From NCBI RefSeq assembly GCF_007655135.1, contig NW_022204091.1, positions 60,711-124,710 of the forward strand: a stretch of 64,000 nucleotides of DNA, given 5' to 3'. The position numbers and the translations under genes are program-made. Shown here one piece after another: positions 12,946 to 60,369 of the stretch; the first letter of the stretch is position 1, and each line of letters opens with the position of its first letter. Source of the DNA: Punica granatum (Eukaryota > Streptophyta > Magnoliopsida > Myrtales > Lythraceae). The notes under the pieces are model-generated. The model saw only the letters and a program-made list of their open reading frames with translations, was not told the DNA's origin and did no database searches.

Positions 12946-12964
12946 GTAGAACAACCTTTTATCA

Positions 12965-35608: not shown

Positions 35609-35880
35609 ATTTAAATTGCTCTTTTCGGGTTAAGATCGGTCTCCTTAGCCTATTCAAGTTAATTTCCGAGTTTGTTTATCATTATTGCATGCATGAAGCC
35701 GGTGTTATGTTATCCTTTTCCTTAATTAACACGTTTGTGAATGTTTGTATGTTTGAATGAGCTAAACAAATCGTGATAACGCCGGCTTTTGTTAAAAAAG
35801 GGTGCTATTTATCACGGTCGATGTTTGAGCATGCGAGAAATAATTAAACCACGATTAGGAAATCGTTCGTGACTCGGATA

Positions 35881-35935
35881 GAGCCATGAGAACCTTCGGC
35901 CACCCTTCACAAGATGAAGCCGAGGGCTTCTTGGC
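35881..35935 (+). other. Hairpin 2 in the R-U5 of the E LTR
   Basis: GCCATGAGAACCTTCGGC pairs with GCCGAGGGCTTCTTGGC. Confidence 0.6.
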
Positions 35936-38055
35936 CTTCCTTGAGTCAAGAATGAATTCCTTATCTCAAGTTTAATTTGTTGATCGGATGATGTGAAGTT
36001 TTACTTCAATGTCTTTACGATTCCCATATTAAAATATCATGTAAAGACTCTTTTAAACAAAGCATGCATGGATTCGAGTATCGATGACTCATTCGGGTCC
36101 ATTTGGTTATGAGGATAGTTTCGGTCATTAGACCAAATTATCCTCGATCCTTATGGAATCGTCTTGGTCGTCGAGTCGCGAATCGTTTTCACAATTAATG
36201 CATTCGGCACAACCCTTAAGCATTAATGCCACAAACTGGTTAATCGGGACGCTCACACGATTAAACTCACTTCACACTGATAAAGTTTACCCGAATTGGA
36301 CATTAACTGATAACTCGCGTCGACGAGTCGTCAAAGGATGTTGGTGCCCTTTTTAAACTTATCAATTTCAAAACCCGAAACGCGCGGTCCGATGTAGCAT
36401 GGACGTCTAAAAAGGGCTTTTGTGTCTCAACTTGAGTTTTCACTTGATTCCAGGTAACTCATGTCAAGATACGGAAGATCTTTCTGGATCACTTCCGGAC
36501 AGATCAACCGATTCTTTGGCTTTTTCAGGGTTCTTGCACAACCCTGGATGATCCAGGGAATCGGTCGACACCGGCTACAGGCCGAGGTGGCCCGCACTGT
36601 GATGTTTCCCCTTTTTTCTGAAAACAATTTTCAAATAAAGGGCAAAATCGTCTTTTCACAATCCAGCGACATCCTTAGGGTTAGCATAACAGAAACACTA
36701 CAGTACGGGATAAGAACGGGCTACCTGTTCAGGTGCAGGTTCATCTGCATAGCCTTTTCTTATCTAACTGATGAGTTTCTGCTATCCTAACATAGACTCG
36801 GGTAACTAGAACAGTTGATCCTTGTCAGAAAACCTGTGAAATGTTGATTAACCTTTCACTCGACCTAACCAAACACTAGATAATGGTTAGGAGGAATTCT
36901 AGATTCCAAATCTAGAGTCAAAACACGAGTTTGGTTAATTCAGTGGTAATTCAGTGTCACAATACAGAACAACTGTAAAAGCGATTCACACACCTGAGAT
37001 TTGACTCTCTTTGTCAAGTTCTCAAAACAAAGCCGAATGCTGAAACATTGGCATATGTTTGATTGTTTAGCATATGGCATTTGCTTGCAAAAACACCCCT
37101 GGGTTAATAATCTGTTAATTCACGTAAACAAGACAATAACAAACACTTTGTCTGTTATTAACCTGTTGCTTGTTATCTTTCTACACCTGTTTGCCATGCG
37201 GGTCGGGCCTGACCCCTAGGCCGAATAATATTAGGGTTCAACGCCCTAATCATCGAGCACAGGGTCCAATACCCTAATCAACACTCACAGGGTCCAACGC
37301 CCTATTCAGTGAGAGCGTTCATTGAATTTCAGTTCTTCGGTCTTTTCCCTAAACTCACGGTGAGTTAGAGTGGAATAATAACCGAACGCGAAACGACTGG
37401 AATTCGACCCTTTTGCAATTTGTATTTATTGTTTTTGAGAGCATTGTAAGGATTCTATTTGGTGCATTTTATTCTGTAAGAATTCCAGTCGGTGAGCGAA
37501 CGGTCCGAGAGTCGAATTAATCGAATCGGTCTAATGCTTGCCCAGACACAAGTGAATCCAAGATATCGCGGTTCTGGTTCACGCAGGGATTCAACCTCCA
37601 TGGTTCGATGAACTGTAATGCAAGATTGTGAACCAATTCCCCGACATATAGATTTACTTCTTTCCCGGCTTCTCAACCGACATCGTTTGGTTCATCGAAT
37701 ATCCGGTGTCAAAACGTGCGAGCCGAGTGCAGCTTAATTCACGCGGTAAATAATAAAACATGCAAGCCTAGCAAACCAGAGTACCGAAAGGGCGTGCGGG
37801 ATATAGGCCCGCACGTAACATGAACCCCCGAACACGGATTTTCCGGTTCCGCACAGATCAATGCCTTAACAACAAACTAGGTGTTCCATACCCCTAGACC
37901 CAGGGTAACTTATCCGCCCTCGACCTTCGGGTCGTAAAATGATAAGTGGCGACTCCTTCTCTCACGCGGGAAGGTGGACGTTCCGACCAAGCCGCGCGAT
38001 CGAAAAGCGCGCGATGCGGGCCCCGACGAGAGTCCACATTCGGGTCCGTACAGCT

Positions 38056-38073
38056 TGGCGACTCCACTGGGGA
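38056..38073 (+). promoter_or_regulatory. Primer-binding site of element E
   Basis: TGGCGACTCCACTGGGGA, three bases after the LTR. It matches the site type of Ogre elements, described as complementary to tRNA-Arg. This is where minus-strand DNA synthesis would start. Confidence 0.9.
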
Positions 38074-38666
38074 CATACTTAGTGGGTTTAGGCTCGATCC
38101 CGTTTGTTTGCTTGCATGTTCATTTACCGCTTTCTGCAATTTTCCGCTTATCTACTTTATGCACCTTTACTTTCCGCACTTGCATTGCATCATACTAGTG
38201 GATTTAGGTACCTCGCCTGAAATCCCACGGGCGCCAATTTAGGAAGCTAGGTTAGTCAGAGGTTCCGAGTAAGGGAACGGATCGAGTCGGCTCCGCCACC
38301 GAACCGGCCCCCAAAGATCCTCGCTCGATTTCAAGGAATTGACACCCTTGAATCGAGGGCCCCCATCCCTAGTTAGTGGTTTTCCCAGTAGAGCACTGAA
38401 ACCATGCATAAACAGGGACCGTCATGCTGGGCCAAAAATAACCTTCACGCAGCCTACCGACCCAAAAGTTGAGTCTTTGAGTCGGCTCGTAGTTTTCTTT
38501 TTTAGGCGAGCCTTTTGTTGTTTTCACTAAGAGAGTGTTGTATAATGTAAAGAACTCGTGCTATAATTTATTTTCTGTACCTGCATGCATATTTCCAAAA
38601 CAAACTAGGACATTACATCAGTTTGTTTATAAACATTAAACCAATATCTTATCCATTTAGGTAAGA
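38074..38666 (+). other. 5' untranslated leader of element E
   Basis: Non-coding. Closely related to C 27609-28155 and to the end of D (63690-64000, reverse strand). It ends TTTAGGTAAGA just before the ORF1 ATG. Confidence 0.75.
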
Positions 38667-40163
38667 ATGGATCGCCCGCGTCCCTGTCCTAGGCTGGATG
38701 TCATCATCACACCGTCAGCGGACATTACTCGCCTTTGGAACATATTCCGCCCAGTAGACCGCGCATTCCTCCGGCTCTTCATAGGAGACCTACCATTGCT
38801 CGCCGATTCTCCCATTGATTGGACCCTACTCAGAACTGCCATTAGTTTTTGGGATACTCAGCGAGCCGTTTTCAGCTTCCATGGGACAGAGTTAGCACCT
38901 ACAGTAGAGGAATATGCGACGCTTCTTCAGCTGTCTACACCGGTTCATGACATCGTGGTGCCCAACCCGTTTGCCACGATACAGAAAAGACTAGCCGTCC
39001 TTTTAGGTCTCCGCAACGAAGAAGTTTATTGCGAGCTTCAGTATGGAGGGGAGCACAGCATTAGGACCACATGGCTCATAGACTTCATACAGACCAGTGC
39101 TTTGAATGCCACAGGAGAGTCTTATCAGCGCGACGCTTGTCACGGATTTCTTTTACTCATCTTCGGAACCATGCTATTCCCGTACTCGTCGAACCTCACA
39201 GACGGGGCACTTGCTCAAGTCATCCTCCAAGTGGTAGGAGGCCATAGTTATGTGGAAGCCGTTTTGGCTGAGACCATTCGGTCTCTTGACTATGTACGAG
39301 AGAATCGACGGGGCAGGATGAGAGGATCTCCACATTTGCTTCAGATTTGGCTTCTCGCACACCTCAGGCCGTTCGGCTTATCTCATCCTTTTTCATGTAT
39401 CACCGACGAGCGATCACTCATCGCTCGCTTACTTCATGTGTTTCGACCTTCCGACCGTAACTACACCGACTGGATGCAGTTTATGGAGGAGCTCACCCCA
39501 GCACAGTTTTTATGGACTACACGTTGGAATCCTGGCGGTCCCATGATCATGGGATGTCCTTCGATTATAGGACTTCCCTTAATCAGTCATTTGGGGAGCA
39601 CACTTATCTTTCCATCCCGAGTCATCAGACAACTCGGCGGGCTACAAGATATGCCTATAGAAGCAGATCGCACTTCACACTGCTTCAGATGGTCAAACAC
39701 CACAATTTCACTCCCGGATAGGATTCTACGAGTTAGAGAGGTCCGACGCTTATGGAGCACGCGCATCGTCCAGCAATTGTACTTTCCAGAACATCCCACT
39801 GACGAGGAGCGAGCTTTTGCAGCTACAGCAGCGTATGTGATGCAGTTCCATCCATATGGATTCGCACCTGTTCGTCGACTACGCATGCCACGGATACTGC
39901 CAACATCGCACGCAGACATTTCGGATGCAGAGAGCTCAAGTCAAGGAGTCGCACGCACAGAGCTGCAGGTTATTAGGGCAGAACGAGATCGTCTTCGCTG
40001 TGAGCTAGTGGATATTCGCGCAGAACTCACTGATCACAGAGAGCTTCAGAGCGAGTTGGTTCAAACTCGTGCACGCGTAGCCGGCCAAGACAGGGAGATA
40101 GCGCGTTTGAACGCTACGCTGGATCTAGCGCAGGCAAGAGCGCGCAGGATCTCCCACCCTTGA
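38667..40163 (+). CDS. Ogre ORF1 protein (DUF7745-like), 498 residues
   Basis: This is the extra protein encoded upstream of gag in Ogre elements; its function is unknown. The ATG at 38667 is the first in frame. Residues about 1-390 form an all-helical-looking domain with an FWDTQRAVFSFHGTELAPTVEEY-type block near residues 60-90, which resembles the DUF7745 family of plant retroelement proteins and more distantly plant mobile domains. The last 80 or so residues (from about 415) are a coiled coil rich in E, R, L and Q heptads. No transmembrane segment or signal peptide was seen. Interrupted relatives of the coiled coil persist in A and D, while C has lost the ORF entirely. The family name is from memory and should be treated as likely. 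Confidence 0.85.
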   Translation: MDRPRPCPRLDVIITPSADITRLWNIFRPVDRAFLRLFIGDLPLLADSPIDWTLLRTAISFWDTQRAVFSFHGTELAPTVEEYATLLQLSTPVHDIVVPNPFATIQKRLAVLLGLRNEEVYCELQYGGEHSIRTTWLIDFIQTSALNATGESYQRDACHGFLLLIFGTMLFPYSSNLTDGALAQVILQVVGGHSYVEAVLAETIRSLDYVRENRRGRMRGSPHLLQIWLLAHLRPFGLSHPFSCITDERSLIARLLHVFRPSDRNYTDWMQFMEELTPAQFLWTTRWNPGGPMIMGCPSIIGLPLISHLGSTLIFPSRVIRQLGGLQDMPIEADRTSHCFRWSNTTISLPDRILRVREVRRLWSTRIVQQLYFPEHPTDEERAFAATAAYVMQFHPYGFAPVRRLRMPRILPTSHADISDAESSSQGVARTELQVIRAERDRLRCELVDIRAELTDHRELQSELVQTRARVAGQDREIARLNATLDLAQARARRISHP

Positions 40164-40468
40164 GCTCATTTACTGAGCGTTTTTGCCTGTACAGAATTCG
40201 CGTAGCGCTCACTCAGCTACGGGTCGTAACAGTTGGCGGTTTAATGTTTATGTTTCCTTTTGAACAGACTGCCTTTGTAAATTATGAAACGCGAATCAAG
40301 CTGATGTAATGGCATTAGTGTTTTTAAACTCATACATCTCATGCATTTATATACTGTCATTTACATCTAGAAGATGGTTAACACATAACAATTGCACTTA
40401 TACACTTACACATATATAGGTATTAACAACTGGCGTCGCATCGATACCCTACTCGGGCACGCGGAAAA
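40164..40468 (+). other. Spacer between ORF1 and gag in element E
   Basis: AT-rich, non-coding. C retains a diverged copy of it (from about 28150) despite having lost ORF1. It holds several candidate splice acceptors (for example ATATATAG near 40418), so gag might be expressed by splicing, but no clear donor-acceptor pair is called. Confidence 0.5.
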
Positions 40469-43400
40469 ATGGCTGAAGAGCAACAACCTGTTATCTCGGA
40501 GCGAGACGCGCCACCGATGCCTGCACAGTCCATCCCGGAAGATACACGTGTGATATCATCTCCAGCACCTACAACGTATTCCGGTGCTATTCCAACGCAC
40601 TTCCCTTCTCCTGCACAAGTGTCACCCAATGTTGTCGATCCCGTGCGCTTTGCCGCACTTGAAGGGATCGTTAATCAGTTGGCTGCCAATATGAACACCA
40701 ATATGACAGAGCTCATGGCAATGCTTCGGGATCAAAACCGAGCTTCCTCAAGCCATACTCCGTCTCCTGAACGCAGGACAACTGTTCATCGGAATCCGAT
40801 TGACCCTCCTATTTATGTGACTGATAGCGAAGATATGTCTTTTCCAGCAACGACATATGTGCCGACAATCACTCCAGTCAGTGATCCTATGCCACCACCA
40901 CCGGCTCCGACATCAGTGCCATTTCCACCCGCGGCGTTCCTATCAACAGATCCCGCAATGATCACTTTGCCGCCGCTCACCATACCTACTCAATCCCCCA
41001 TTTACACCGTTCCACCACCGACGGTTCCTCCAGTCGCGATCACACAAGTCCCTGCTCCCACTATGGAACCTTTTTCATTCCAAGCTCCACAAACCCAAAT
41101 GAGCTTCTCCTACCAAACTCCACCGCCTCTAAATATTCCTCCCACTGAGCCTGGCACACCTACTCATGCCGCACCTGCAATTCTACCGACGAACATTCCT
41201 CCTGAAAATGAACAGGAGAAAAGAATGAAGAGAATGGAGGAAACCATTCGAACCCTCCAAGCAGGCACGTCCCGTCATGACTTCAGCGACAGTGACTGGA
41301 ATCTCTTTCCAGGCATGTTGTTACCCCCTAAGATCAAAATTCCAGATTTCAAGAGGTACGACGGGACCAAAGACCCTCGGCATCATCTCCGTCACTACCA
41401 TAGCAAAATGCTTCCGTATTGGGATTATGAGGAATTTGTCGTCCAGACTTTCCAAGACAGTCTTACGGGATCAGCGCTAGATTGGTTTATGACCCTGAAA
41501 GCCGGCGACATCTCTACATGGACAGATCTCTCTCAGAAATTCCTCGACCAATACCGATTCTGTGCAGAGACACCTCCTACTCTTCTTGATCTTAGCATGG
41601 CAGAGATGAAAGAAAGTCAAACTTTCGAAGCATACGCAACGGAATGGAGGGGAAAAGCGGCAAAGCATATACCTCCAATCACTGAGCGTCAGCAAGTTCA
41701 ACTGTTTCATTCTACGCTCAGAGGCGCGTATTATTCACATCTCCTGGCTCATACTTCCTCTTTCTCAGACCTGATTGAGGCAGGAAAGAAGTTGGATATG
41801 GGAGTTAAGTTAGGAAGAATTGAAGATCCGGCAAGGAATAAAGACAGAGAGACACCGAAGAAACAAACTGCCGGAACATCCAGAAGAGGCAAAAACGCGA
41901 CTATCGGCATCGTCAATCCTGGACATCAAGCTCCACACCCAATGTCGGTGGACTACGCCCCTGCATTACCGATTTCTCAGCCATATGCGCATCCCGTGCA
42001 GTATATGCAACCTCATCAAACGCCGCAAGCTTACTTCTCAACCCCGCCCACTGTTATCCAGTCGCAACCTCCGCAACCGTACCCTTCTGTTCAAGTTCAA
42101 CCAGTTAGACCCCCGACTTCGAGGCCTCCTCAGCCGGCTCAACGTGTCCCAGCTCCTAGAACTCAACAAGACAATACTGCTCAACCGCGTTCACGCAAGC
42201 AATACACCAATTTGCCGGCTCCTCCCTCTTACATATTCAGACAGCTCCTTGCAGGCGACAAGATCAAAACGGAAGCACCAAATCCTCGTTTCGATCCGTC
42301 CATGCAGAACCAGAATCTTCGATGCGAATTTCATCGGGGTGCTCCTGGTCATACCCTGGACACTTGTTGGAGACTCCGGGATAAAATTCAGGAGATGATT
42401 GATGCAAGACAAATCTCCTTTAATGAGGTGAAGCCGCCAAATGTCCGTGCAAATCCTCTTCCGGATCATGGATCAGGTGCAGGACCTTCTGTGAACATGA
42501 TTAGCATTGCTGCTATTGAGGAGGAAGAAGATGCGCGAAAGCCCTCAATTCCATTTGCTATTAACTATGCTCCAGTAGAACTCGCATTCGCTCCCGCCCC
42601 GTTCGTTATAGAAGTTCCTGCAAAGGAGCCTTATCACGATAGTCGAGTTCCCTGGACATACGAGAGCGAGGTTGCCAGTGCAGAATTGAAGATGAGCACG
42701 ATGGGAATCACGCGTTCGGGACGAGTATATCAGGGTCCAGAGCATATTGACAAAGGAAAGGCTCTTGCTACTGAATCCTCAATCGCTCCAAAAGCCGTGT
42801 CATTCTCTACAAAGAAGGTCACCGATCAAGAAGCCGAAGACTTCATGAAGGTGATCAAAGCAAGCGAGTACAAAGTGATCGAGCAAATGAGCAAGTCACC
42901 AGCTCATATATCATTGCTCGCATTGCTTTTGAACTCCGAACCTCATCGGAACGCTTTGCTGAAAGTTCTCACCGCGGCACAAGTCCCGAAAGATACTGCA
43001 CCGAATAGAATTGAGGAGACGGTGAATTCTATTTTCTCAAATCAGATTTCCTTTTCGGAAGACGAAATTCCCACGGAAGGACAAGCACATTTGCGGGCGT
43101 TGCACATAGTTTGCAAGTGCAACAACCACATCGTTGGTCGAGTCATGATCGACAACGGCTCTGCTCTTAACGTTTGCCCCGTCTCCACGTTGAAACAGAT
43201 GAACGTGGACATGAGTCACATTCGTGCAAGCAAGACCACCGTTCGAGCCTTTGACGGCTCTAAGAGAGTGGTGAACGGTGAAATTGATCTCCTAATCGAG
43301 GTGGGTCCTTGCTCATTCTCTATTACCTTCCAGATCTTGGAAATACCCAATGCTTTTAGTCTCCTACTTGGAAGACCATGGATTCACGCCGCCGGCGCCG

Positions 43401-44068
43401 TTCCTTCATCATTGCACCAGAAGTTAAAATTCTTTGCCGAAGGCAAACTCATCACTGTCAACGGCGAGGAAGATTACGCGGTCTATAAAGAAACGGCCAT
43501 CCCTTATATCAGCATTGGAGAAGATCAGAATCTCCCTTTCCATTCTTTTGACATGATCTCCGTAATTCGAGACTACGGAGAGGTTAGTCCATCGCGAACT
43601 GATCGCATGATTGGAAAGGTTCTCTTGAAGAACAATTATGTCCCTGGAACTGGACTCGGGGCACGCGCACAGGGAATCCTTCGACCAATCGAAATGGAGG
43701 AATACCGCAATAGGAGGGGACTCGGCTTTCGCCCTTCCTGCCATGAGGTCACACAAGCCCGTCGCGGAAAACATCTACACCACCTTGCTGCACATTATGG
43801 GAAGCTCTATAGGGGCATGCCATTTCCACCACTCTCACAGTTTTTTGCAGCACCACCACAAATCATGGGAGACACCTCAGAGAACCCAATCACTGAAACA
43901 GATGACTTCTCTTCGGATGCGGTTGAAGCGTTTTTGGCTTTGCCAGCCATACATGCCGTCATTGAGGAGACATCTTCTAAGGTTCATATCCGTCCTGCAC
44001 AGGAGGATGAGGAGCTTACCAACTGGACTTCAATCCCGCTCTACTCGGCCATAGTTGCCGATGTGTAA
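40469..44068 (+). CDS. gag-pro: Gag-protease polyprotein of element E, 1,199 residues
   Basis: This provides the nucleocapsid and the maturation protease. The start is AAAATGGCTG at 40469. Residues about 1-250 are proline-rich. The retrotransposon gag core is at about 290-455 (DPRHHLRHYHSKM, ALDWFMTLK, LFHSTLRGAYYSHLL). A second proline/glutamine-rich linker follows. A zinc-knuckle-like CEFHRGAPGHTLDTC (C-x2-H-x5-H-x4-C) is at about 614-628. The aspartic protease is at about 870-1000, with active site IDNGSALN (about residues 893-900, Asn where many proteases have Thr or Ser) and flap and LLGRPW motifs. A G-patch-like glycine segment (PGTGLGARAQG) is at about 1058. If the intron at 44065 is spliced, translation continues into pol instead of stopping at TAA (44066-44068). 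Confidence 0.95.
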   Translation: MAEEQQPVISERDAPPMPAQSIPEDTRVISSPAPTTYSGAIPTHFPSPAQVSPNVVDPVRFAALEGIVNQLAANMNTNMTELMAMLRDQNRASSSHTPSPERRTTVHRNPIDPPIYVTDSEDMSFPATTYVPTITPVSDPMPPPPAPTSVPFPPAAFLSTDPAMITLPPLTIPTQSPIYTVPPPTVPPVAITQVPAPTMEPFSFQAPQTQMSFSYQTPPPLNIPPTEPGTPTHAAPAILPTNIPPENEQEKRMKRMEETIRTLQAGTSRHDFSDSDWNLFPGMLLPPKIKIPDFKRYDGTKDPRHHLRHYHSKMLPYWDYEEFVVQTFQDSLTGSALDWFMTLKAGDISTWTDLSQKFLDQYRFCAETPPTLLDLSMAEMKESQTFEAYATEWRGKAAKHIPPITERQQVQLFHSTLRGAYYSHLLAHTSSFSDLIEAGKKLDMGVKLGRIEDPARNKDRETPKKQTAGTSRRGKNATIGIVNPGHQAPHPMSVDYAPALPISQPYAHPVQYMQPHQTPQAYFSTPPTVIQSQPPQPYPSVQVQPVRPPTSRPPQPAQRVPAPRTQQDNTAQPRSRKQYTNLPAPPSYIFRQLLAGDKIKTEAPNPRFDPSMQNQNLRCEFHRGAPGHTLDTCWRLRDKIQEMIDARQISFNEVKPPNVRANPLPDHGSGAGPSVNMISIAAIEEEEDARKPSIPFAINYAPVELAFAPAPFVIEVPAKEPYHDSRVPWTYESEVASAELKMSTMGITRSGRVYQGPEHIDKGKALATESSIAPKAVSFSTKKVTDQEAEDFMKVIKASEYKVIEQMSKSPAHISLLALLLNSEPHRNALLKVLTAAQVPKDTAPNRIEETVNSIFSNQISFSEDEIPTEGQAHLRALHIVCKCNNHIVGRVMIDNGSALNVCPVSTLKQMNVDMSHIRASKTTVRAFDGSKRVVNGEIDLLIEVGPCSFSITFQILEIPNAFSLLLGRPWIHAAGAVPSSLHQKLKFFAEGKLITVNGEEDYAVYKETAIPYISIGEDQNLPFHSFDMISVIRDYGEVSPSRTDRMIGKVLLKNNYVPGTGLGARAQGILRPIEMEEYRNRRGLGFRPSCHEVTQARRGKHLHHLAAHYGKLYRGMPFPPLSQFFAAPPQIMGDTSENPITETDDFSSDAVEAFLALPAIHAVIEETSSKVHIRPAQEDEELTNWTSIPLYSAIVADV

Positions 44069-44252
44069 GACGGTCTTTATACATAATGCTACCTGCATGT
44101 CGGCAATGCCATAAGCCACATGACAGAAGAGGGGTTTTTGTTATGGCTTGTTAATAGAATCCCTGCATGTTTTTGATTTCCTGTCCCTAAATTCTCTCTT
44201 GCACTCGCTTCTAACATCTTTAATTTCTAAGACAATTCACTTTCATGTCCAG
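44065..44252 (+). other. Intron between protease and RT in element E, 188 bp
   Basis: The donor is GATGT/GTAAGA and the acceptor ATGTCCAG/GCTCC. Joining gives the codon GT+G and continues CTC CAA TCG in exactly the frame of pol, removing the gag stop codon. A possible branch point CTAAC lies near 44211. An intron at this place is a published hallmark of Ogre elements. The unspliced RNA would give gag-protease only, so the splicing ratio would set the gag to pol ratio. Relics of this intron remain in element A. Confidence 0.85.
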
Positions 44253-47200
44253 GCTCCAATCGAATCCAAATCATGGATATAACGATTCGGATTCACTCGA
44301 AACACATCTCGGAAAGTCCCTACCCATATACTTCGGGGAAGGACTTGACGAGGATGGTCGCGTGCCCGAGATAGAAGAGAGTTTGCATCGTCTCGAAAAC
44401 CACCAACTCACTTCCGTTGAGCCAACCGAAGACATCAACGTAGGCAATGCAGACGAACCACGCACCCTTAGAATCGGAATAGGACTCGACTCTGCACAGA
44501 GGACCCGAATGATCGACTTCTTGACAGAGTACCAGGAGGTCTTCGCTTGGTCCTACGCCGATATGCCAGGCCTAGACCCCTCAATCGTAAAGCATTTCCT
44601 CCCACTCGATACTGAAAGATTCCCACCCAAACGCCAACACTTGCGACGTCAAAGAGCTGACCTTCTCTTACGCATTAAGGAAGAAGTCATCAAGCAAGTA
44701 GACGCGGGATTCCTGGAGGTATGCAATTACTCTGAATGGGTAGCGAACATTGTTCCAGTGGAAAAGAAAAATGGGAAAGTCAGAGTCTGCATCGACTACC
44801 GAGATCTCAATAGGGCTAGCCCAAAGGATAATTTTCCGCTGCCACACATCGATGTCTTGGTGGACAATACAGCACGCCACTCACAATTCTCCTTCATGGA
44901 CGGTTTCTCTGGATACAATCAGATTCAGATGGCCGAAGAAGACAAAGTCAAGACCACATTCATCACGATGTGGGGTACATTTTGCTACAAGGTCATGCCT
45001 TTCGGTCTCAAAAATGCCGGGGCAACCTATCAACGAGCAATGGTCACTCTCTTTCATGACATGATGCATAAAGAGATCGAGGTCTATGTAGACGACATGA
45101 TCGCGAAGTCCAAAGAAGGAGAAGATCATTTGGTTAACCTCAAACGATTGTTCGACCGCCTCAAGAAATACAAACTCCGACTTAACCCAACAAAATGCAC
45201 ATTTGGCGTCAAGTCAGGGAAATTGTTAGGGTTTATAGTCAGTGAGGAAGGCATCAAGGTCGACCCTGACAAAGTTAAAGCGATCATGGAATTGCCCCCT
45301 CCATCGACAGTGCGCGAAGTGAGGAGCTTCTTAGGACGGCTGAATTACATCGCGCGTTTCATCGCAAATTTGACAGACAAGTGCCAACCACTCTTCCGTT
45401 TGCTTCGCAAGAATGCAGCGGTCGAATGGGATGATGAGTGTCAGAAAGCTTTTGATACCATCAAGGCATATTTAAGTCAGCCGCCGGTGTTAGTTCCACC
45501 TTCACCTGATCGTCCTCTCATTTTGTACTTGACGGTGCGCCGACAATCCATCGGATGCATGTTAGGACAAAAGGACGAGTCCTCTCACGCAGAGCGAGCC
45601 ATTTATTATTTGAGCAAAAAGTTCACTGAAGGGGAGTCCAACTACCCTGAGATAGAGAAAATGTGTTGCGCACTTGTGTGGGTCATGCAGAGACTCCGGC
45701 AATACACTCTCTACCATACTGTTCGCCTGCTGTCGAAGACAGATCCTTTGAAATATCTGCTTAGTACTCCGTCCTCCATGAGGAACATAGCAAAATGGCG
45801 TTGCCAACTGACGGAGTACGACATCGAATATGTGTCGCGCACATCAGTCAAGGGCCAAGCGATAGCAGATCATTTAGCAGAATTCCCGATTGTCGATGAC
45901 ACACCGATCGACTCTGATTTCCCCGACGAAAAAATCCTCCAAATGAGTGGTGAGGAGGAAACCACCAGATGGAAGATGTACTTCGATGGTGCAGTTAATT
46001 CCACCGGATCAGGGATTGGCGCAGTGCTGATATCCCCGGAAGGGCGCCATTTTCCTGTTGCAGCGAAGATTGATTTCCCCTGCACCAACAACATAGCCGA
46101 ATATGAGGCATGTATCCTCGGCTTGCAGGCGGCAATCGACCTCAAAGTCAAGGAGCTTGAAGTGTTTGGAGATTCCATGCTCACAATCTTTCAGACACTC
46201 AAACAATGGAAGACGAAAGATCCAAAACTGGTGCCATATCATGAGTACCTTGAAGACTTGACAGAAAACTTCAAGGACATCTCATTTACATACACACCAC
46301 GCATGAAGAACCAGTTCGCTGATGCACTCGCAACACTCGCTTCCATGGTTAGCATTACAAAAGAGAATCTCATCGAGCCCCTCGAATTTGAGATTGCTCA
46401 GGGTCCTGCCCATTGCGATGTAATCGACGCTATCGACGGCAAGCCGTGGTACGCAGACATTAAACACTTGCTACAAACGGGTCAGTTCCCAGCATTCACC
46501 GATCGACATGACCGGAGGACTCTTCGGCGCATTGCAGCAAATTTCTTCCTGAGCGGTGAAATCCTTTACCGCCGTTCTTTCGATGCCACACTGCTTCGGT
46601 GTGTTGATGAGAATGAGGCACAACGCCTCATGGAAGAAGTGCACGAGGGAAATTGCGGACCTCATATGAACGGGCTCATGCTAGCAAAGAAGCTCATGCG
46701 ACTTGGGTACTTCTGGTCCACCATGGAGACTGACTGCGTCAAACATGTCAGGCACTGTCACTTGTGTCAAGTTTACGCAAATCAGATCAGAGCACCACCC
46801 AATGAGCTGCATCCAATGGCTGCTCCGTGGCCCTTTTCAATGTGGGGCATGGACGTGATTGGTCCTATTAACCCCAAAGCATCCAATGGGCACTTGTACA
46901 TATTGGTAGCTATCGACTACTTCACCAAATGGATCGAAGCTATCACTCTTGCATCAGTCACTGCAAAGACCGTGGCACGCTTCCTCAGACGTGACATCAT
47001 TGCACGTTACGGGGTCCCTGCGACACTTGTCACAGACAACGCCAAGAATTTGAACAATAAGCTCATCGATGAGCTCTGTGCACAGTTCAAGATTCTACAC
47101 CGCAACTCCTCTCCGTATCGTCCACAAATGAACGGTGCAGTAGAGGCAGCAAACAAGAACATAAAGAAGATCATCGAAAAGATGACAGTTAATTACAGAG

Positions 47201-47694
47201 ACTGGCACGAGATGCTCCCATTCGCACTCTTGGCGTATCGGACTTCTATCCGCTCGTCCACTGGATCAACCCCATACTCTTTGGTCTACGGCATGGAAGC
47301 AGTTCTTCCAATCGAAGTAGAGATTCCCTCTATGAGGATCCTTGCCGAGTCCAAGCTCAAGGAAGCAGAGTGGGCAAAGCAACGCTACGAACAGCTCAAT
47401 CTCATTGATGAGAAGCGGCTAACAGCACTTTGCCACGGTCAGTGCTATCAGCAAAGAATGGCCCGAGCTTTTAACAAGAAAGTTCGTCCCCGCGAGTTCA
47501 GCCCCGGCGACCTCGTCCTGCGAAAGGTTCTGCATATTGCCCCTGATTCCAGGGGCAAATTCGCTTACAAATACGACGGTCCCTTCATTGTTAAAGAAGT
47601 CTTTGACGGTGGGGCAATCATTCTCAATGATATGGATGGGAACGAGAATGCTCTTCCGGTCAATGCTGATACACTCAAGAAATACTATCCATGA
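44253..47694 (+). CDS. pol: Pol of element E: RT, RNase H, second RNase H, integrase
   Basis: This is the open frame from the intron acceptor; a lone ATG at 44245 lies inside the intron. Residue numbers count from that ATG. Reverse transcriptase is at about 135-330, with VRVCIDYRDLNRASPKD, MPFGLKNAGATYQR and catalytic YVDD at 45085-45096. The first RNase H (about 390-545) has YLTVRRQSIGCML where the catalytic Asp is expected, so it looks inactive. A second, archaeal-type RNase H (about 575-700) has intact YFDGAV, EYEACILGL, GDSML and FADALA. Integrase has its HHCC zinc finger ending CHLC (about residue 848) and a D-D-E core in GMDVIGP (869), VTDNAKN (about 930) and GAVEAANKN (about 966). The dual RNase H is characteristic of the Tat lineage. 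No stop or frameshift was seen. Confidence 0.96.
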
Positions 47695-47869
47695 TAGTGT
47701 TTCTCTCATTCCACGTGGATGTTTTCCTCAAATGCACATTTACATTTCTTTACTTTCTTCGCATGTACAATCTCCCAGCATTTTCATTTCCGCTTATTAA
47801 TACACTCCCCGCTTCTGCCTTTTTCCCTTTCTCTGAACTTGTCCTGAGAGAAAAATAGTAAATCTCCCG

Positions 47870-48143
47870 CTAGGTTGAAAACCTCTTTGAGGCGGCCTAG
47901 GCAAAAATTAGGGAATGAGGGGCACGGTTTAAAATCCCGAAAAAGGGGAATCGTGGCAAAAGGAGAGTACAAAGCGAAATCCTCGCTAGAGTGAAAACCC
48001 GAAAAGGCGCTCTAGGCAAAAGTTAGAGGAACCGAGAGGTATGACCAAATCCAATTGGGACGGTCATAGCAAAAGGTGAGCTCTAAATGAGAAAAGAGTC
48101 TAAAAGAATACCCCGCTAGGTCGTCACGCATCTTGCGACCTAG
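47870..48143 (+). other. GCAAAAG hairpin array in element E (five stem-loops)
   Basis: Stem-loops in order: CTAGGTTG/CGGCCTAG (47870-47900, inner CCTC-TTT-GAGG), CACGGTT/AATCGTG (47923-47955), CTAGAGTG/CGCTCTAG (47986-48015), TATGACC/GGTCATA (48040-48068), CTAGGTCG/CGACCTAG (48116-48143). Each 3' arm is followed at once by GGCAAAA or GCAAAAG, then TTAG or GGAGAG/GGTGAG. Two types alternate. Stem sequences differ but pairing is kept, with G-T wobble. Confidence 0.8.
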
Positions 48144-48799
48144 GCAAAAGTTAGGGGCCTTCGGCAGCTCGACTATGAAGTAACAACTACACTCAGTGTG
48201 AAGCGACAACAAGTAGTAGTTTGGCAGTCTCCGATGCAAGCAAACTCTCTTTGACTCTCACAGCACAAGACACGTTTCGACATGCAGTCGAATCGTCGTA
48301 TCCTTGATATGGAGGATCCCAAAATCCCTCCATTTTCCTTAATGCAAATTCTACGGGTCAAGCCCATTCTGTAAATATAAGCCTTTTGTCGAGTCACAAT
48401 CTAGTGGGAGACGACCACCCCTTTAAATGGTCATCATGTTCAAATCCCCAAAGCATTATTATTCAGACTTCTTGATACATCTTCATTATGGCTATAGAGT
48501 AGGATTGACAACCACTATTAGCCCTTTTGATTCTAGTTGCAGGAAGCAGGATTTGAACCCCGAAAAGAGTTTCTTTTTGACGAATGCATGTCTGTCTTAT
48601 GCCAAAGGCTACAGTCTAAATCCGAAGAGAGACCTTCAGGACAACACTCCAGGCACTCAGTTACATCGCAATCAGTTGGCGAGCAATGAAACGTCCCACC
48701 ACAGCATTGATTGCGACATGGACGAAATCAACGAGGGAAGGAACACAATGATTCCTTCCACACCTCACACCACTCCCCAGTGTTTGCATTTACTTCTCA

Positions 48800-49247
48800 C
48801 ACATTTATTTCTGCAATGCACTTTCATTAGCGTGCACCCTCTCAGGACTGCAGTGCACATTTATTTCCGCAATGCACTTTCATTAGCGTGCACCCTCTCA
48901 GGACCGCAGTGCACATTTATTTCCGCAATGCACTTTCATTAGCGTGCACCCTCTCAGGACTGCAGTGCACATTTATTTCCGCAATGCACTTTCATTAGCG
49001 TGCACCCTCTCAGGACCGCAGTGCACATTTATTTCCGCAATGCATTTTCATTAGCGTGCACCCTCTCAGGACTGCAGTGCACATTTATTTCCGCAATGCA
49101 TTTTCATTAGCGTGCACCCTCTCAGGACTGCAGTGCACATTTATTTCCGCAATGCACTTTCATTAGCGTGCACCCTCTCAGGACTGCAGTGCACATTTAT
49201 TTCCGCAATGCAGTTTCATTAGCGTGCACCCTCTCAGGACGCAGTGC
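48800..49247 (+). repeat. 56-bp tandem repeat, 8 copies
   Basis: The unit runs CACATTTATTTCCGCAATGC ... TTCATTAGCGTGCACCCTC ... GGACYGCAGTG. Period is exactly 56 bp at 48856, 48912, 48968 and so on to 49192; the last unit has a 1-bp deletion. Copies differ at a few positions only (ACTGC/ACCGC, GCAC/GCAT). Each unit contains GTGCAC words that can pair with each other. Confidence 0.93.
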
Positions 49248-49265
49248 ACATTCGCAACATGCGGC

Positions 49266-49505
49266 ACCCTTCGGGTCAGTCCCGACTACTTTCCTGCATT
49301 TCAGTCCCCTTCGGGTCAGTCCCGACTACTTTTCCTGCATTGGGGTCAGTCCCCTTCGGGTCAGTCCCGACTACTTTTCCTGCATTGGGGTCAGTCCCCT
49401 TCGGGTCAGTCCCGATTACTTTTCGTGCATATTGCAAACCCTTCGGGTCAGTCCCGATTACTTTTCTTGCATTGGGGTCAATCCCCGTCGGGTCAGTCCC
49501 GACTT
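49266..49505 (+). repeat. ~45-bp tandem repeat, about 6 copies, made of UCAGU-loop hairpins
   Basis: The unit is CTTCGGGTCAGTCCCGACTA followed by CTTTTCCTGCATTGGGGTCA and GTCCC. It alternates the hairpins CGGG-TCAGT-CCCG and GGGG-TCAGT-CCCC. The loop is constant (one TCAAT variant near 49480) while the stem alternates. Confidence 0.85.
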
Positions 49506-49704
49506 TAATTGCCTGTTTCAGCTTTGTTCCGAACTCTACATGTTATTGTGCACATCTCACCATATTCCCTCTTATTAGGTACAACATCCTACATATCCAA
49601 AACAAAAAGGAGAGGGCCATATAGGAAATTCCATTTTGATCATTGCTATCAAACTGGGGTGCTTTTGAAATCTTTGATTGCATCCTCTACTCGAGCAAGC
49701 AGTC

Positions 49705-49718
49705 AAAGAGGGGCAAGC
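49705..49718 (+). promoter_or_regulatory. Polypurine tract of element E
   Basis: AAAGAGGGGCAAGC lies directly before the 3' LTR; the same sequence precedes D's 3' LTR. It would prime plus-strand synthesis. Confidence 0.88.
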
Positions 49719-52700
49719 TGTCAGCACCCCATTTTGGCTCACCATTCCAAACAATGATATTAGCAATGACCCAAGCCACGACTTGAGCAGAATACAGAAA
49801 ACGGCTCGGCAGAGCAAGAAATCACTATTCATCCTCAAGTTGGCAAAATTGAGCAAATGGCCCATGGACATGACAGAAGGACTCTAGGGGTCACCAAAGG
49901 GGAACAGAGCGACCAAAGAACTCAACAATGTCCAAAACCGGCGTTTTCAGTGTATTACACGGACGGCACTATTTTCCGATAGTTCGCTCGGTCATCGGAA
50001 GATAGTGAATATTGGACTCCAAAAATCCACACCAGTGCCAAATAGATGAAAGTGTCCCCAAAGGCATTTTGCAAATCATCTGTTCTATACAGAACAACTT
50101 TCTGTATACAGACAACTTTTCAGTGGAAGTCCAAAAATGCCGGTTTCCTGGAGAAAAGTTAATTCCAAATATCAGACGCGGCCATGCCCCATCAGCACAC
50201 AGAGTAGGAACAACGCTTCAGATTGTCTTTTGGAAGTCACACAGACACTTCAAATGACTTCCGAACGGCAAAACAAGCATACCCCTCTTCAGAAGAGCAT
50301 AGCCGGAGAAGGGTCTGATGGAATTACGGCAAACGAAGTTCATACTGCATTGCCCAGAAAACTCTAGCAGACATTCACAATTGGGCAAAACAGACAGCAA
50401 AACCCTTCGCGGTTTCCCGAGTAACCTCCGAAGAGCGGAAATGACCATTTTCAGTGGAAATCCATATCCGGAGGTCCTCTTTGGGGAAATTTGACGCCGA
50501 ATGCTTACGTTACACAATGCTAGCCTTCTTAAGGCTCAATGTGGAGTCGTCGGAATAATTCACACAACTCATCTAGATCTCTCAAACAGTGCTTTAGAGG
50601 TCTCAGATACACTCTTCAAGTCCTTGGAGGTCTAATCTTGACAAACAGAGATTACAGTAATCTCCGGAGTGCCCAAGCAACTCAGAAGTCATCTTGAGAA
50701 AACCAGTCTCGGCCTCCTAGGACGTCTCCGGCCCCACGTTAGCATTACCGGCTTAAGGGATGATTGTTCACGTGGTTTGACAACTTATGCCAAAATGACC
50801 AACATGAGATGCAGACACGGGATATGCTGTCAGAAGCGGACAACTTCGCCCCGATCACTTGCAATGGGCAAAATCGGCTCCCGAGCCCCACACACATCCG
50901 GGACATTTCTCAATAGAAAATGTCAATCTTGGGCTCATTAACTCCGTTTTCACGCGTATACCGACAATTCGACGTTCAATTCGAACCACGAACTTCGAAT
51001 ACGCGACCAATCGAGACCCGAGTCTTTTCCCGGTTTCTCCTCACAAGCCGTGGGACCCACGGGCTGCCCAAGGGCAACCGCCCTTTGCCCCAAACTTTTC
51101 GGCCTTTTCCCCTTTCCTCTCTTGCCCTCACCTAGCCCAAAATATCTTTGGTCTTCCAAGTCAACACTCAAGCCATTAACTCCACCTCCATTAATGCTTC
51201 TTGGCTCTTCCTCATCAAGATACTTGGATGACATTCATCCTCATCTCCATTAGGGCAACCGACCTTCATTAATGAGGCCCTTAATGGTGCTTTGTTTTGC
51301 TTAATTGCTCATTAGCTTCACATATATATTGCCTATTTGTGATTAAGCTAATCATTCATGAAGCACACCTCATCTTGCTAGTTTCTCCCTCTAGAAAATG
51401 CTCTCAACTCCTTAGGAACCAGCAGCAAGCAAAGAACTTCATGAAAATCAAGAATCAAGCCAAATAGCTTTGGAGTTTAGGTCGGGATCCATAGCGGGCA
51501 CTATTCCGACTTATATCCAAAATTCTTCAAACTTCATAGACGACATGTTTCGGACCCAAGGATTCCATTTCTGAACCCAGTTTTTTAGTTTGGAGTCGTT
51601 TGCTTATCATTTTGGATCATTTCGGGTGAAGTTGGAGCTCTCGGGTGAACAGTGCCCGTCACCAGGCGTCACCGAGCGCAGCCAGGCGTCACCGAGCGCA
51701 GCCAGCATCCGCAGCCAGGCAGCCAGGCGTCGAGCGCAGCCAGCATCCGCAGCCAGGCGTCACCCGCGCACGCCCGCGCCCGTCACCAGCGCACGCCGCG
51801 CCCGTCACCAGCGCACGCCGCGCCCGTCACCAGCACGCCCGCGCCCGTCACCCGCGCACGCCGCGCCCGTCACCAGCGCACGCCGAGCCCGTCACCCGCG
51901 CACGCCGCGCCCGTCACAGCACGCCGCGCCCGTCACCCGCGCACGCCGCGCCCGTCACGCCGCGCACGCCCGCGCCGTCACCCGCGCACGCCGCGCCCGT
52001 CACCAGCGCACGCCCGCGCCCGTCACCAGCGCACGTCCGTGCCCACTAGCTCCCGTCACCGTGCTCGACCGTGCCCGTGCACGTCCATCCTTGCACCCGA
52101 ATACCCTTTTAAGGGTTCCACCGAGTCACCCGACTCTCAAACACTTCCCCGACTCTTTCCTCGTATTCCGAGGCTAGGTAAAACACTTTCGACTTAGAGG
52201 AGTTAGGACTTTTTATATTTTTGCATGGCTATGGAGTATTATGGTGTTTTCATGCATGTTTCATTCACAAGATTTAATTTTTATGCAATTTTATGTTATA
52301 TTATACACGTACACTATCTTAGGACTTGCTACCATGTCGGAAAGGGGCTTGGATCATCATAAAGAAGACTATCCCGACCCTATTATGGCACATTAAGTCT
52401 CGGCCAATTCTCTAAAGGAGAGGGTTGAGATTTAAATTGCTCTTTTCGGGTTAAGATCGGTCTCCTTAGCCTATTCAAGTTAATTTCCGAGTTTGTTTAT
52501 CATTATTGCATGCATGAAGCCGGTGTTATGTTATCCTTTTCCTTAATTAACACGTTTGTGAATGTTTGTATGTTTGAATGAGCTAAACAAATCGTGATAA
52601 CGCCGGCTTTTGTTAAAAAAGGGTGCTATTTATCACGGTCGATGTTTGAGCATGCGAGAAATAATTAAACCACGATTAGGAAATCGTTCGTGACTCGGAT

Positions 52701-54894
52701 AGAGCCATGAGAACCTTCGGCCACCCTTCACAAGATGAAGCCGAGGGCTTCTTGGCCTTCCTTGAGTCAAGAATGAATTCCTTATCTCAAGTTTAATTTG
52801 TTGATCGGATGATGTGAAGTTTTACTTCAATGTCTTTACGATTCCCATATTAAAATATCATGTAAAGACTCTTTTAAACAAAGCATGCATGGATTCGAGT
52901 ATCGATGACTCATTCGGGTCCATTTGGTTATGAGGATAGTTTCGGTCATTAGACCAAATTATCCTCGATCCTTATGGAATCGTCTTGGTCGTCGAGTCGC
53001 GAATCGTTTTCACAATTAATGCATTCGGCACAACCCTTAAGCATTAATGCCACAAACTGGTTAATCGGGACGCTCACACGATTAAACTCACTTCACACTG
53101 ATAAAGTTTACCCGAATTGGACATTAACTGATAACTCGCGTCGACGAGTCGTCAAAGGATGTTGGTGCCCTTTTTAAACTTATCAATTTCAAAACCCGAA
53201 ACGCGCGGTCCGATGTAGCATGGACGTCTAAAAAGGGCTTTTGTGTCTCAACTTGAGTTTTCACTTGATTCCAGGTAACTCATGTCAAGATACAGAAGAT
53301 CTTTCTGGATCACTTCCGGACAGATCAACCGATTCTTTGGCTTTTTCAGGGTTCTTGCACAACCCTGGATGATCCAGGGAATCGGTCGACACCGGCTACA
53401 GGCCGAGGTGGCCCGCACTGTGATGTTTCCCCTTTTTTCTGAAAACAATTTTCAAATAAAGGGCAAAATCGTCTTTTCACAATCCAGCGACATCCTTAGG
53501 GTTAGCATAACAGAAACACTACAGTACGGGATAAGAACGGGCTACCTGTTCAGGTGCAGGTTCATCTGCATAGCCTTTTCTTATCTAACTGATGAGTTTC
53601 TGCTATCCTAACATAGACTCGGGTAACTAGAACAGTTGATCCTTGTCAGAAAACCTGTGAAATGTTGATTAACCTTTCACTCGACCTAACCAAACACTAG
53701 ATAATGGTTAGGAGGAATTCTAGATTCCAAATCTAGAGTCAAAACACGAGTTTGGTTAATTCAGTGGTAATTCAGTGTCACAATACAGAACAACTGTAAA
53801 AGCGATTCACACACCTGAGATTTGACTCTCTTTGTCAAGTTCTCAAAACAAAGCCGAATGCTGAAACATTGGCATATGTTTGATTGTTTAGCATATGGCA
53901 TTTGCTTGCAAAAACACCCCTGGGTTAATAATCTGTTAATTCACGTAAACAAGACAATAACAAACACTTTGTCTGTTATTAACCTGTTGCTTGTTATCTT
54001 TCTACACCTGTTTGCCATGCGGGTCGGGCCTGACCCCTAGGCCGAATAATATTAGGGTTCAACGCCCTAATCATCGAGCACAGGGTCCAACACCCTAATC
54101 AACACTCACAGGGTCCAACGCCCTATTCAGTGAGAGCGTTCATTGAATTTCAGTTCTTCGGTCTTTTCCCTAAACTCACGGTGAGTTAGAGTGGAATAAT
54201 AACCGAACGCGAAACGACTGGAATTCGACCCTTTTGCAATTTGTATTTATTGTTTTTGAGAGCATTGTAAGGATTCTATTTGGTGCATTTTATTCTGTAA
54301 GAATTCCAGTCGGTGAGCGAACGGTCCGAGAGTCGAATTAATCGAATCGGTCTAATGCTTGCCCAGACACAAGTGAATCCAAGATATCGCGGTTCTGGTT
54401 CACGCAGGGATTCAACCTCCATGGTTCGATGAACTGTAATGCAAGATTGTGAACCAATTCCCCGACATATAGATTTACTTCTTTCCCGGCTTCTCAACCG
54501 ACATCGTTTGGTTCATCGAATATCCGGTGTCAAAACGTGCGAGCCGAGTGCAGCTTAATTCACGCGGTAAATAATAAAACATGCAAGCCTAGCAAACCAG
54601 AGTACCGAAAGGGCGTGCGGGATATAGGCCCGCACGTAACATGAACCCCCGAACACGGATTTTCCGGTTCCGCACAGATCAATGCCTTAACAACAAACTA
54701 GGTGTTCCATACCCCTAGACCCAGGGTAACTTATCCGCCCTCGACCTTCGGGTCGTAAAATGATAAGTGGCGACTCCTTCTCTCACGCGTGTCCGACGCG
54801 CGTCCCCGCGGGAAGGTGGACGTTCCGACCAAGCCGCGCGATCCAAAAGCGCGCGATGCGGGCCCCGACGAGAGTCCACATTCGGGTCCGTACA
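49719..54894 (+). mobile_element. 3' LTR of element E, 5,176 bp
   Basis: Near-identical to 32826-38052. The main differences are the shorter GC minisatellite, an extra 21 bp near 54790, and about five substitutions (for example at 50527, 50689, 53290, 54090 and 54843). It ends GGGTCCGTACA followed by ACTCC. Confidence 0.95.
51660..52035 (+). repeat. GC-rich minisatellite in the E 3' LTR
   Basis: Counterpart of 34760-35225, about 80-90 bp shorter and with a different unit order, in LTRs that are otherwise nearly identical. Confidence 0.9.
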
Positions 54895-58855: not shown

Positions 58856-60227
58856 AGGGGAGGCAGAAGTAGAGATCGATGCCAGGTGGCATCTCAGAGG
58901 TGTCGGCAGAAGCGAATCGTTCGGTTTGGAGCGAAGTCGTGCTCGTGCGACGCCAGGCATCATTTGTTGCGGCTTGAGCAGGAGTCGGGTGGCTTTTCCC
59001 CCATAGGGCCCTCCACTCGGCTCGAGGTTGCGATCTGCTGCATGAGTCAATCGCGTGTCTGTCAAGGAGGAGATGCCCCTTGGGGTTCCATGCGTATCTG
59101 CAGAGAGGAGCATAACTCTTCGTTAGTCATGTGGACAGTAGTGCGCGCCAAGTGTATAGGGCTGATGTGTCCCGAAGGTATTGATCTGCTGTAGATTGGC
59201 GTTGCTTGCTGCGATGAAGTTGCTTCGTCGATGCTTTGCCCTTGGGGTGGCTGTGTGTTTGATCTGCGGAAGCCGCTTTGCTGCTGGGCGGTTACTCGTT
59301 ACTCTGCGGATGTCAGCTCGTCGCAGTGGCGATTGTAGTTCGCTAGGGAAGCCCGGTCTTGCGATGTGGGACTTGAACTCTGGGGTAGAGTGCCTACGTA
59401 TCCCGAGGAGTCGGGAATCAAAGTCTGCCGTAGTTCCCGCGTTTGTACCTGTGATCCTAACATCATTAGTAAGTCATGGGATTACTAGTGATTTGTAAGC
59501 ACAGGTAAAAGGAAGTGTTTGTAACGCATGCTCTTCAGTTTCGGGTCGCTTGGGCGATCCGTGGAGAGGTTTGCTTTGGTGATGCCAATGGGGGTCCCGC
59601 TTTCAGAGGCCCGATGTGAGGCCTCGGGGCTCCTGTTGGCCTTGCATGGGCATATCGAGACGTCCTCAAAGGTGCCCAAGTGGCTCTATCGGTTGTTCGA
59701 CGCGCCCGTGAACTTAGGACCCTTCTCATCAGGGTACCGTAGGGTGGCTGCATTGTAACCCGCATGCTGAATTTTGTTCAAATTTGGTCAGACCTCGGTC
59801 TAGTCATTTCCAGAGTGTTATGACTAGACTCCGGGAAGAAATGTCTAGGATTTGGCTTTGCGGTAGCCGATTGAAGGGTGGCCGTGACCCATTTTGGAGT
59901 TGTGCAATGACAAAGAGAAAAAGAGAAAGCTTGGGGAGACGTTGCCCAAGGCTAAAAGGATACACGAGTTCACGCTTGCCGTGAGATGTACCCCTTCTCT
60001 TCCGTCCTTCGTTGGTGTTGGCTGTTGGATTGTTTGGATTGCGTGCTTGGTCGCCCGCTGTGCTTGAAGAAGAATCCGCCTTGGACGGTTGAGTTCGGTA
60101 GGAGAGCCGATCGGGGATCGTGTTGGAGTAGATAACCTGGCCATTTCCCTTGGGGATCCCTGGTCCGCGCAGTGTGCAAAGGCCCAGGGGACTATTTTGT
60201 TTATCTCTCATTTTACTCTCCTTTTGC

Positions 60228-60369
60228 TACGGTCACCCGCTCAGGGCCGTACCTCTAACCTAAAGGGGATGAAACTCCTTTTGCCACGACCGCCCGCCTC
60301 GGGATTTTCAGTCGTGCCTCTCTTTTGCCCTAACTTTTGCCTAGATCGCCCCATGGGTTTTCAACCTAG
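60228..60369 (-). other. GCAAAAG hairpin array in element D (three stem-loops)
   Basis: Given as plus-strand arms: CTAGATCG/CAACCTAG (60341-60369), CACGACC/AGTCGTG (60285-60316), TACGG/CCGTA (60228-60251). On the minus strand each is followed by GCAAAAG, in the same order as in C. Confidence 0.75.

Follow-up and report, generated by a model that had tools for sequence, protein, structure and literature searches.

Directly downstream of the pol gene of a long LTR retrotransposon, here termed E, lies an array of five stem-loops, and comparison of its genomic copies shows that the RNA shape of the array is preserved while its letters change. The initial annotation of this DNA had proposed that selection maintains an RNA structure here and that the inverted repeats do not owe their presence to chance, and this reading is supported both by covariation in 14 arrays and by the occurrence of the array at the same place in copies picked through their integrase. 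We judge that there is about an even chance that the array acts as a cis-acting replication signal of this Ogre/Tat-type family and of its coding-less relatives, most likely as a packaging array bound by Gag. All evidence for its role and for covariation comes from one genome. To our knowledge, it has not been established how the very long Ogre RNAs are exported and packaged. Being compact, covarying, present in many copies and nearly invariant in its unpaired letters, the array is a testable candidate for a cis signal through which autonomous elements would share a single machinery with their coding-less relatives.

Stem-loop arrays in a nest of LTR elements

The window, that is, the whole 64,000-nt stretch of DNA that was analysed, holds a nest of LTR elements in which E is inserted within an LTR of element D (minus strand), and D lies within element C (plus strand). 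E occupies positions 32826-54894, on the plus strand and inside D's LTR, and ACTCC is present on both of its flanks (at 32821-32825 and directly after the 3' LTR). Its 5.2-kb LTRs (32826-38052, with TGTCAGC...GTACA ends, and 49719-54894) are 98% identical to each other, and TGGCGACTCCACTGGGGAC, a candidate primer binding site, stands 3' of E's LTR. The 5' leader (38056-38624) is followed by ORF1 (38661-40163), which lies upstream of gag and carries a DUF7745/plant mobile domain (PMD), by a 109-nt block (40239-40347), and then by a gag-pro ORF (40427-44068) with a G-patch domain at amino acids 1063-1100 and a Retrotrans_gag score slightly under the cut-off. G-patch domains are present in some retroviral proteases. 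The pol ORF (44224-47694) encodes reverse transcriptase, RNase H (RT_RNaseH, 428-532), a second RNase H (RVT_3, 587-705) and integrase (rve, 870-967), and is separated from gag-pro by a stop codon and an intron-like stretch, read from the sequence alone. Hairpin 1 of the array starts approximately 175 nt past the pol stop codon. Between the array and the 3' LTR lie tandem repeats (48800-49504) and a tract that directly precedes the LTR (49656-49718) and is also found in D and in a C-type copy (L091).

Ogre elements are known for very long LTRs, an extra ORF1 upstream of gag and tandem repeats between integrase and the 3' LTR; further features are a second (archaeal-type) RNase H before the integrase, an intron between protease and reverse transcriptase, and a tRNA-Arg primer binding site. 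E displays the very long LTRs, ORF1 before gag, the second RNase H before integrase and the tandem repeats, and we take it to be an Ogre of the Tat lineage of Ty3/gypsy. An open frame with RVT_1 and zf-RVT at 1-3132 (plus strand) is presumably a LINE-type reverse transcriptase. The window also contains a solo LTR of the same superfamily (6186-11476, plus strand) with GTTAG on each side, an inverted repeat in the B region (12301-13285) whose arms of approximately 300 bp are 80% identical, and a very GC-rich minisatellite of approximately 22 bp in both LTRs of E (34881-35224 and 51758-52044). Ogre elements, which can be the dominant component of a plant genome, make up 45% of that of Lathyrus sativus; hypervariability and an abundance of repeats have been reported for their 3' regions (PMC7004042).

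All 11 stem-loops listed in the initial annotation could be located: five in E (about 47870-48143), three in C (about 30447-30592) and three in D (about 60228-60369, minus strand). In a regular unit the main stem is 8 bp long and its 5' arm leads into an A-rich bulge of 4 nt; a short C-rich/G-rich inner stem and a loop that varies cap the unit, and the 3' arm runs directly into GCAAAA. Both arms of the main helix are thus succeeded by a run of A, which is the AAAA bulge for the 5' arm and part of GCAAAA for the 3' arm. The alternation of CTAG-type and CACG/TATG-type stems was confirmed in E. There, hairpin 1 (47870-47907) is of the CTAG type, with an 8-bp stem, an AAAA bulge, a CCTC/GAGG inner stem and GCAAAAA as its linker; hairpin 2 (47923-47962) is of the CACG type, its linker GCAAAAG being followed by GAGAG; hairpin 3 (47986-48022) is of the CTAG type (CTAGAGTG/CGCTCTAG), hairpin 4 (48040-48075) of the TATG type, and hairpin 5 (48116-48150) of the CTAG type without an A-bulge. 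C carries, on the plus strand, a CTAG-type hairpin whose outermost pair is broken (C·A; 30447-30485), a CACG-type hairpin (30503-30539) and a short one with TGCGG/CCGTA (30568-30599). The corresponding hairpins of D, on the minus strand, are located at 60334-60369 (CTAG type), 60278-60316 (CACG type) and 60221-60251 (short, TACGG/CCGTA). The third hairpins of C and D belong to the second type, with 5-bp stems and no 5' A-bulge, and they are irregular units, with another bulge or none, as are hairpins 4 and 5 of E.

GCAAAAG had been described as a constant, single-stranded linker after every stem. It does follow 10 of the 11 stems, the exception being hairpin 1 of E; after CTAG-type stems it is more than a mere free strand, as an outer helix (TCCC/GGGA in hairpin 1 of E, TCCTC/GAGGA in hairpin 3, CCCC/GGGG in hairpin 5) encloses GCAAAAGTTA. 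In nine coding-copy arrays the cells of this outer helix are paired in 36/36 cases for hairpin 1, 42/45 for hairpin 3 and 35/36 for hairpin 5, and RNAalifold, with no structure supplied, recovers all five hairpins and, for hairpins 1, 3 and 5, the outer helix as well. CACG-type units carry purine runs on their flanks (for example GAGAGG ... GCAAAAGGAGAG), and the A/purine runs of E are spaced by 53-76 nt. The outer helix around the linker in CTAG-type units is new with respect to the earlier description, as is the near-invariance, in coding copies, of the 5' A-bulge and GCAAAA.

Taken by itself, the linker shows no enrichment: the window contains 18 copies of GCAAAAG, with 12.9 expected. In a strict search for uninterrupted pairing that stops at GCAAAA, 8 of the 11 hairpins scored at least 7, the failures being the first and third of C and the third of D; this score is reached at 2.4% of random positions, and seven GCAAAA sites outside the arrays also pass. 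Rfam 15 covariance models gave no hit at gathering threshold over the window, and none at E<=1 over 47700-48300.

Covariation in the window and across genomic copies

The stems of the 11 hairpins comprise 78 pairs, which are Watson-Crick in 68 cases, G·U in nine and A·C in one, with no other combination. In an 11-row alignment built from sequence only, 93.5% of cells are paired, as against 75.2% after shuffling, and 25 cells are changed on both sides, as against 9.8, with neither value reached in 500 shuffles; the change of stems in both arms that had been pointed out by eye is thus confirmed. When the structures are slid along this alignment, pairing falls to 32-51%. A covariance model, which the initial annotation had suggested building from the 11 stem-loops, recovers all of them from the window and adds a single weak match, at 11.1 bits. 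A leader hairpin at 38421-38473 (11.1 bits) was considered as a relative of the array and rejected; the leader of C offers no match above 6.6 bits, and the sequences of D and B have diverged at this place. B retains gag-like sequence (35% amino acid identity), and the covariance model detects no array in it.

Genome-scale searches covered the window's own genome, of 320,430,517 bases in 474 contigs. The pattern for the CTAG type (CTAG..CTAGGCAAAAGNTAG) matched 1,933 times and that for the CACG type (CACG..CGTGGCAAAAGGNGAG) 1,101 times, with no match for either reversed control; these figures are not element counts, because the array of a coding copy can contain two or more CTAG-type matches. 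A pattern in which the linker was unconstrained gave 2,575 matches, and its control 51. The matches listed, on which the analyses of individual strings below are based, are 100 of the 1,933, 100 of the 1,101 and 100 of the 2,575, all on one contig (C1); GCAAAA is found in 88 of the 100 matches listed for the last of these patterns, and four of the other 12 are chance matches as judged by eye. When the array of E was compared to the genome, 40 matches were scored of 1,738 candidates, and 36 of these, the window's own included, are at the top score with 100% identity. There are therefore at least 36 places with an array identical to that of E, indicating a recent burst of this element.

The covariation claim holds in a larger alignment. 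In 14 coding copies, 661 of 686 cells are paired, compared to 623.8±10.4 (maximum 649) in tree-aware simulations, a value reached in none of 1000; the same test counts 12 pairs whose types differ on both sides, compared to 5.6 (maximum 11), again reached in 0/1000. The tree was derived from non-stem columns, and the 49 pairs tested are those of hairpins 1-4 and of the outer helices of hairpins 1 and 3. The 14 arrays consist of that of E, eight from the pattern that fixes one CTAG-type hairpin, and five chosen by integrase alone, and include two sets of near copies (L063/L068 and L094/L095). Orthologous hairpins change stepwise through G·U; one pair of hairpin 4, for example, is A-U in four arrays, G·U in eight and G-C in two. 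In the five integrase-picked copies, 145 of 155 arm pairs are formed. An alignment of nine arrays (A3) exceeds all 500 shuffles in three of five measures, and all but one in a fourth, and yields no excess of further pair types (31 versus 31.0; 334/500 shuffles).

Single hairpins carry less signal. Among the matches listed, 260 of the 280 cells at free pairs 5-8 of 70 distinct CTAG-type strings are paired (187 Watson-Crick and 73 G·U, with 13 A·C and 7 other), as against 249.9±2.3 when arms are re-dealt (0/5000), and 255 of 276 cells are paired in 69 CACG-type strings, as against 199.0±6.1 (maximum 223 in 10,000); both shuffles ignore relatedness. When relatedness is accounted for with two trees, simulations attain the paired-cell count of strings among the matches listed 1 and 8 times in 1000 with the pooled set, and 15 and 42 times with the CACG type; the CTAG type alone fails (86 and 182 of 1000). 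Leaving out four CTAG-type strings that differ only after the linker changes these figures to 6/13 (pooled), 15/42 (CACG) and 82/171 (CTAG) of 1000. The expectation of significant covariation was not borne out at the level of single hairpins by R-scape-like per-pair G-tests with tree-simulated nulls, whose E-values are 0.307 for the 66 CTAG-type rows that remain without those four strings, 0.545 for 62 CACG-type rows and 0.095 for 119 pooled rows, all from the matches listed. In each of these three tests a structural pair ranks at the top, and the lack of significance follows from the few independent changes that short hairpins carry. The array-wide test with flanks is the only decisive test of covariation.

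Near-constant A-runs and the strand on which selection acts

In the 14 coding copies, mean pairwise identity is 0.988 in the bulge of hairpins 1-3 and 0.976 in the linker, as against 0.835 in the arms, 0.811 between hairpins, 0.755 in inner stem and loop, and 0.592 upstream of the array. For E and the five integrase-picked copies the values are 1.00 for both bulge and linker, 0.822 for the arms and 0.686 upstream. In coding copies, the 5' bulge of hairpins 1-3 thus varies as little as the linker does. Since bulge and linker are more conserved than arms whose pairing is kept, the arms of coding copies appear free to change as long as they remain paired, and the A-runs are nearly fixed. Among the matches listed, the bulge reads AAAA in 66 of 70 distinct CTAG-type strings, and AAAA in 47 and GAAA in 18 of 69 CACG-type strings.

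The array of E folds unusually well in the sense strand (z of -2.55) and not in the antisense strand (z of -0.46), which points to RNA; on their own, the arrays of C and D are equalled in folding by many shuffled sequences (z of -1.43 and -0.95). It could be argued that the constraint acts on DNA, where, in the chromosome or as cDNA, the inverted repeats would form cruciforms or be recognised by proteins. The stems are indeed near-perfect inverted repeats, and among strings of the matches listed the share of G·U relative to A·C stays within the tree-aware null, being reached by 308 and 521 (CTAG), 85 and 220 (CACG), and 147 and 191 (pooled) of 1000 simulations. The strand argument thus rests on the folding of E's array, on the counts in the 11 hairpins, and on the changes in the 14 arrays. 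G·U exceeds A·C nine to one in the 11 hairpins, and in the 14 arrays 26 of the inferred single changes from a pair lead to G·U and 9 to A·C. Moreover, a DNA constraint should be strand-neutral, unlike the folding of E's array, and we consider this explanation very unlikely.

Coding and coding-less carriers, and the candidate role of the array

The initial annotation had made its case conditional on finding the array at the same position in other copies. Within this genome, this is so in all five 400-nt pieces that were chosen only by the integrase end (five examined of 128 scored candidates, from 256 matching pieces); each contains hairpins 1-4, the fifth falling beyond the cut. The array also occurs in loci of another kind. 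Of 30 loci found by pattern (L061-L090), 13 have integrase just upstream (8 distinct arrays) and 17 have none within 1.5 kb, and integrase lies within this distance in 30/30 E-type loci and 0/30 C-type loci. In 39 loci examined of 90 (L091 apart; 138 hits), the covariance model detects five units in 10/10 loci with integrase and three in 29/29 loci without integrase within 1.5 kb; the fifth unit of L077 is weak (13.6 bits), as is a hit of 12.8 bits in L050 that lies outside the array. This split between five and three units constitutes a natural experiment on the amount of signal required.

The idea that the array has no function, having arisen by tandem duplication of a hairpin and persisting as a passenger of the family in the same way as the tandem repeats next to it, draws on the hypervariable, repeat-rich nature reported for Ogre 3' regions (PMC7004042). 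It is hard to reconcile with a bulge and linker that are 98-100% identical, against 59-69% upstream, with paired cells above all 1000 null simulations, and with unit numbers of five or three in the 39 loci examined, and is extremely unlikely. E's own tandem repeats share the same stretch of the element with the array; the repeats of Ogre/Tat 3' regions vary and seed satellites (PMC7004042), whereas the array is conserved and in E lies upstream of them.

No match to ORF1, gag-pro or pol of E was found in C or D by tblastn (E<=0.001). Between the LTRs, C has in common with E (blastn, E<=0.001) the leader (27591-28162, 91% identity), the 109-nt block before gag (28159-28265, 74%) and the array; D shares the array, the tract that precedes the 3' LTR, and part of the leader, at which the window ends. 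Retention without gag-pol, a mark by which a packaging signal may be recognised, is thus found in C and D, further loci being judged by integrase within 1.5 kb. This retention argues for a replication signal and against a role in translation, for instance as a 3' cap-independent enhancer, to which the location of the array soon after the last stop codon of E could otherwise point. The 3' processing role that had been listed among the options is disfavoured as well, whether as a poly(A) or as a terminator hairpin, because the 3' LTR, where the RNA is expected to end, lies further downstream of the array by 1.6 kb in E, 2.1 kb in D and 3.3 kb in the C-type copy L091. We thus regard a translation or 3'-processing element as scarcely probable. 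Judged from the sequences, loss of genes with the array kept is the best argument for a putative cis-acting replication signal.

For the packaging reading, we propose that the stems would hold unpaired A/purine runs in place on the genomic RNA, where the runs would serve as repeated binding sites and form a multi-site landing place, most likely for the Gag of the family. Full-length RNA of autonomous and parasitic elements alike would thereby be selected and packaged. The usual RNA-binding part of Gag is a CCHC zinc knuckle; none was found in ORF1, gag-pro or pol of E, and binding may therefore be performed by the ORF1 protein or by a basic stretch of Gag. The 3' position of the array, between pol and the 3' LTR, speaks against packaging, known packaging signals of retroelements being mainly near the 5' end. 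The Gag protein of MMTV picks its RNA via an unpaired purine loop, and SL4/ssPurines of this virus resemble the array in that stem-loops present purine runs, GCAAAAG here often being followed by GAGAG (PMC8096270). The MMTV sites adjoin the dimer site and the primer binding site, whereas the array lies 3' and its binding by Gag is putative. A precedent for parasitism comes from BARE elements of barley, which belong to Ty1/copia. BARE2 cannot make Gag, keeps its packaging signals and is packaged by BARE1 in trans, and is thus, like C and D, a non-autonomous plant element that has kept cis signals and lacks a needed gene product; no hairpin array is mentioned for BARE2 in the excerpt of that report (PMC3735527).

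The main rival to packaging is a signal for export or stability, which would account just as well for the presence of the array in coding-less elements. The A-bulged array would in that case resemble a constitutive transport element (CTE), and would recruit an export or anti-decay factor to a very long, possibly intron-bearing RNA. The CTE is a bulged helix that separates the last gene from the 3' LTR. The array is likewise a bulged helix located after pol and before the 3' LTR, and the A-run after each strand of its main helix gives it a rough two-fold look; it differs from the CTE in having no match in Rfam. The retroviral CTE is named in a report according to which LTR elements have to export genomic RNA that contains introns (PMC10309623), and coding-less elements would require export or stability too. 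Plant LTR retrotransposons such as Evade/Copia93 contain an element for nuclear expression (ENE), a structured RNA motif that lies, like the array, downstream of the coding region and ahead of the 3' LTR, serves multiplication of the element, and is reported to raise RNA stability and the mobility of Evade (PMC12501189). The ENE uses U-rich internal loops, flanked by stems, that bind the poly(A) tail; the array is unlike it, since it has no U-rich loops and instead carries A-rich unpaired runs (among the matches listed, AAAA in 66/70 CTAG-type strings and AAAA or GAAA in 65/69 CACG-type strings) in three or five units. C and D, having no match to gag-pro or pol, would have no pro-pol intron from which to escape, the array is similar to no Rfam family, and five or three units with purine-run flanks fit Gag binding at least as well. 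We thus hold an export or stability element to be possible, if on the unlikely side.

The hairpins could also promote dimerisation or circularisation of the genome by pairing with a second RNA copy or with the 5' leader. The self-complementary CTAG begins 5 of the 11 stems, there are several units, and the array is retained together with the leader. CTAG sits, however, in the stem and not in the loop, the loop varies in sequence and length in strings among the matches listed, and the leader contains no convincing relative of the hairpins; we consider this role unlikely.

If the packaging reading is correct, the array could represent an undescribed class of retroelement RNA signal, namely a 3' array of spaced stem-loops with two near-invariant A-runs, one on each strand, per freely covarying helix that would act as a multi-site packaging platform, and of which coding-less parasites would keep a three-unit version to hijack Ogre particles. 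We give this extended proposal somewhat less than an even chance. No description of such an array was found in the open-licence PMC literature, most of the original Ogre work being in subscription papers. The hairpin pattern has no match in viral or prokaryote contigs, nor has the integrase C-terminus of E in viral contigs; these are non-plant collections and uninformative on other plants. The integrase of E has a 66% identical counterpart on a 2,975-bp contig recorded as Salmonella enterica, probably a plant contamination of a bacterial assembly.

A block of the leader is common to E (38255-38376, plus strand), C (27793-27914, plus strand) and D (63880-64000, minus strand), and less closely to B. 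In E it contains a long inverted repeat, CTCGATTTCAAGG...CCTTGAATCGAG, which is a candidate for a second cis signal, at the 5' end of the element.
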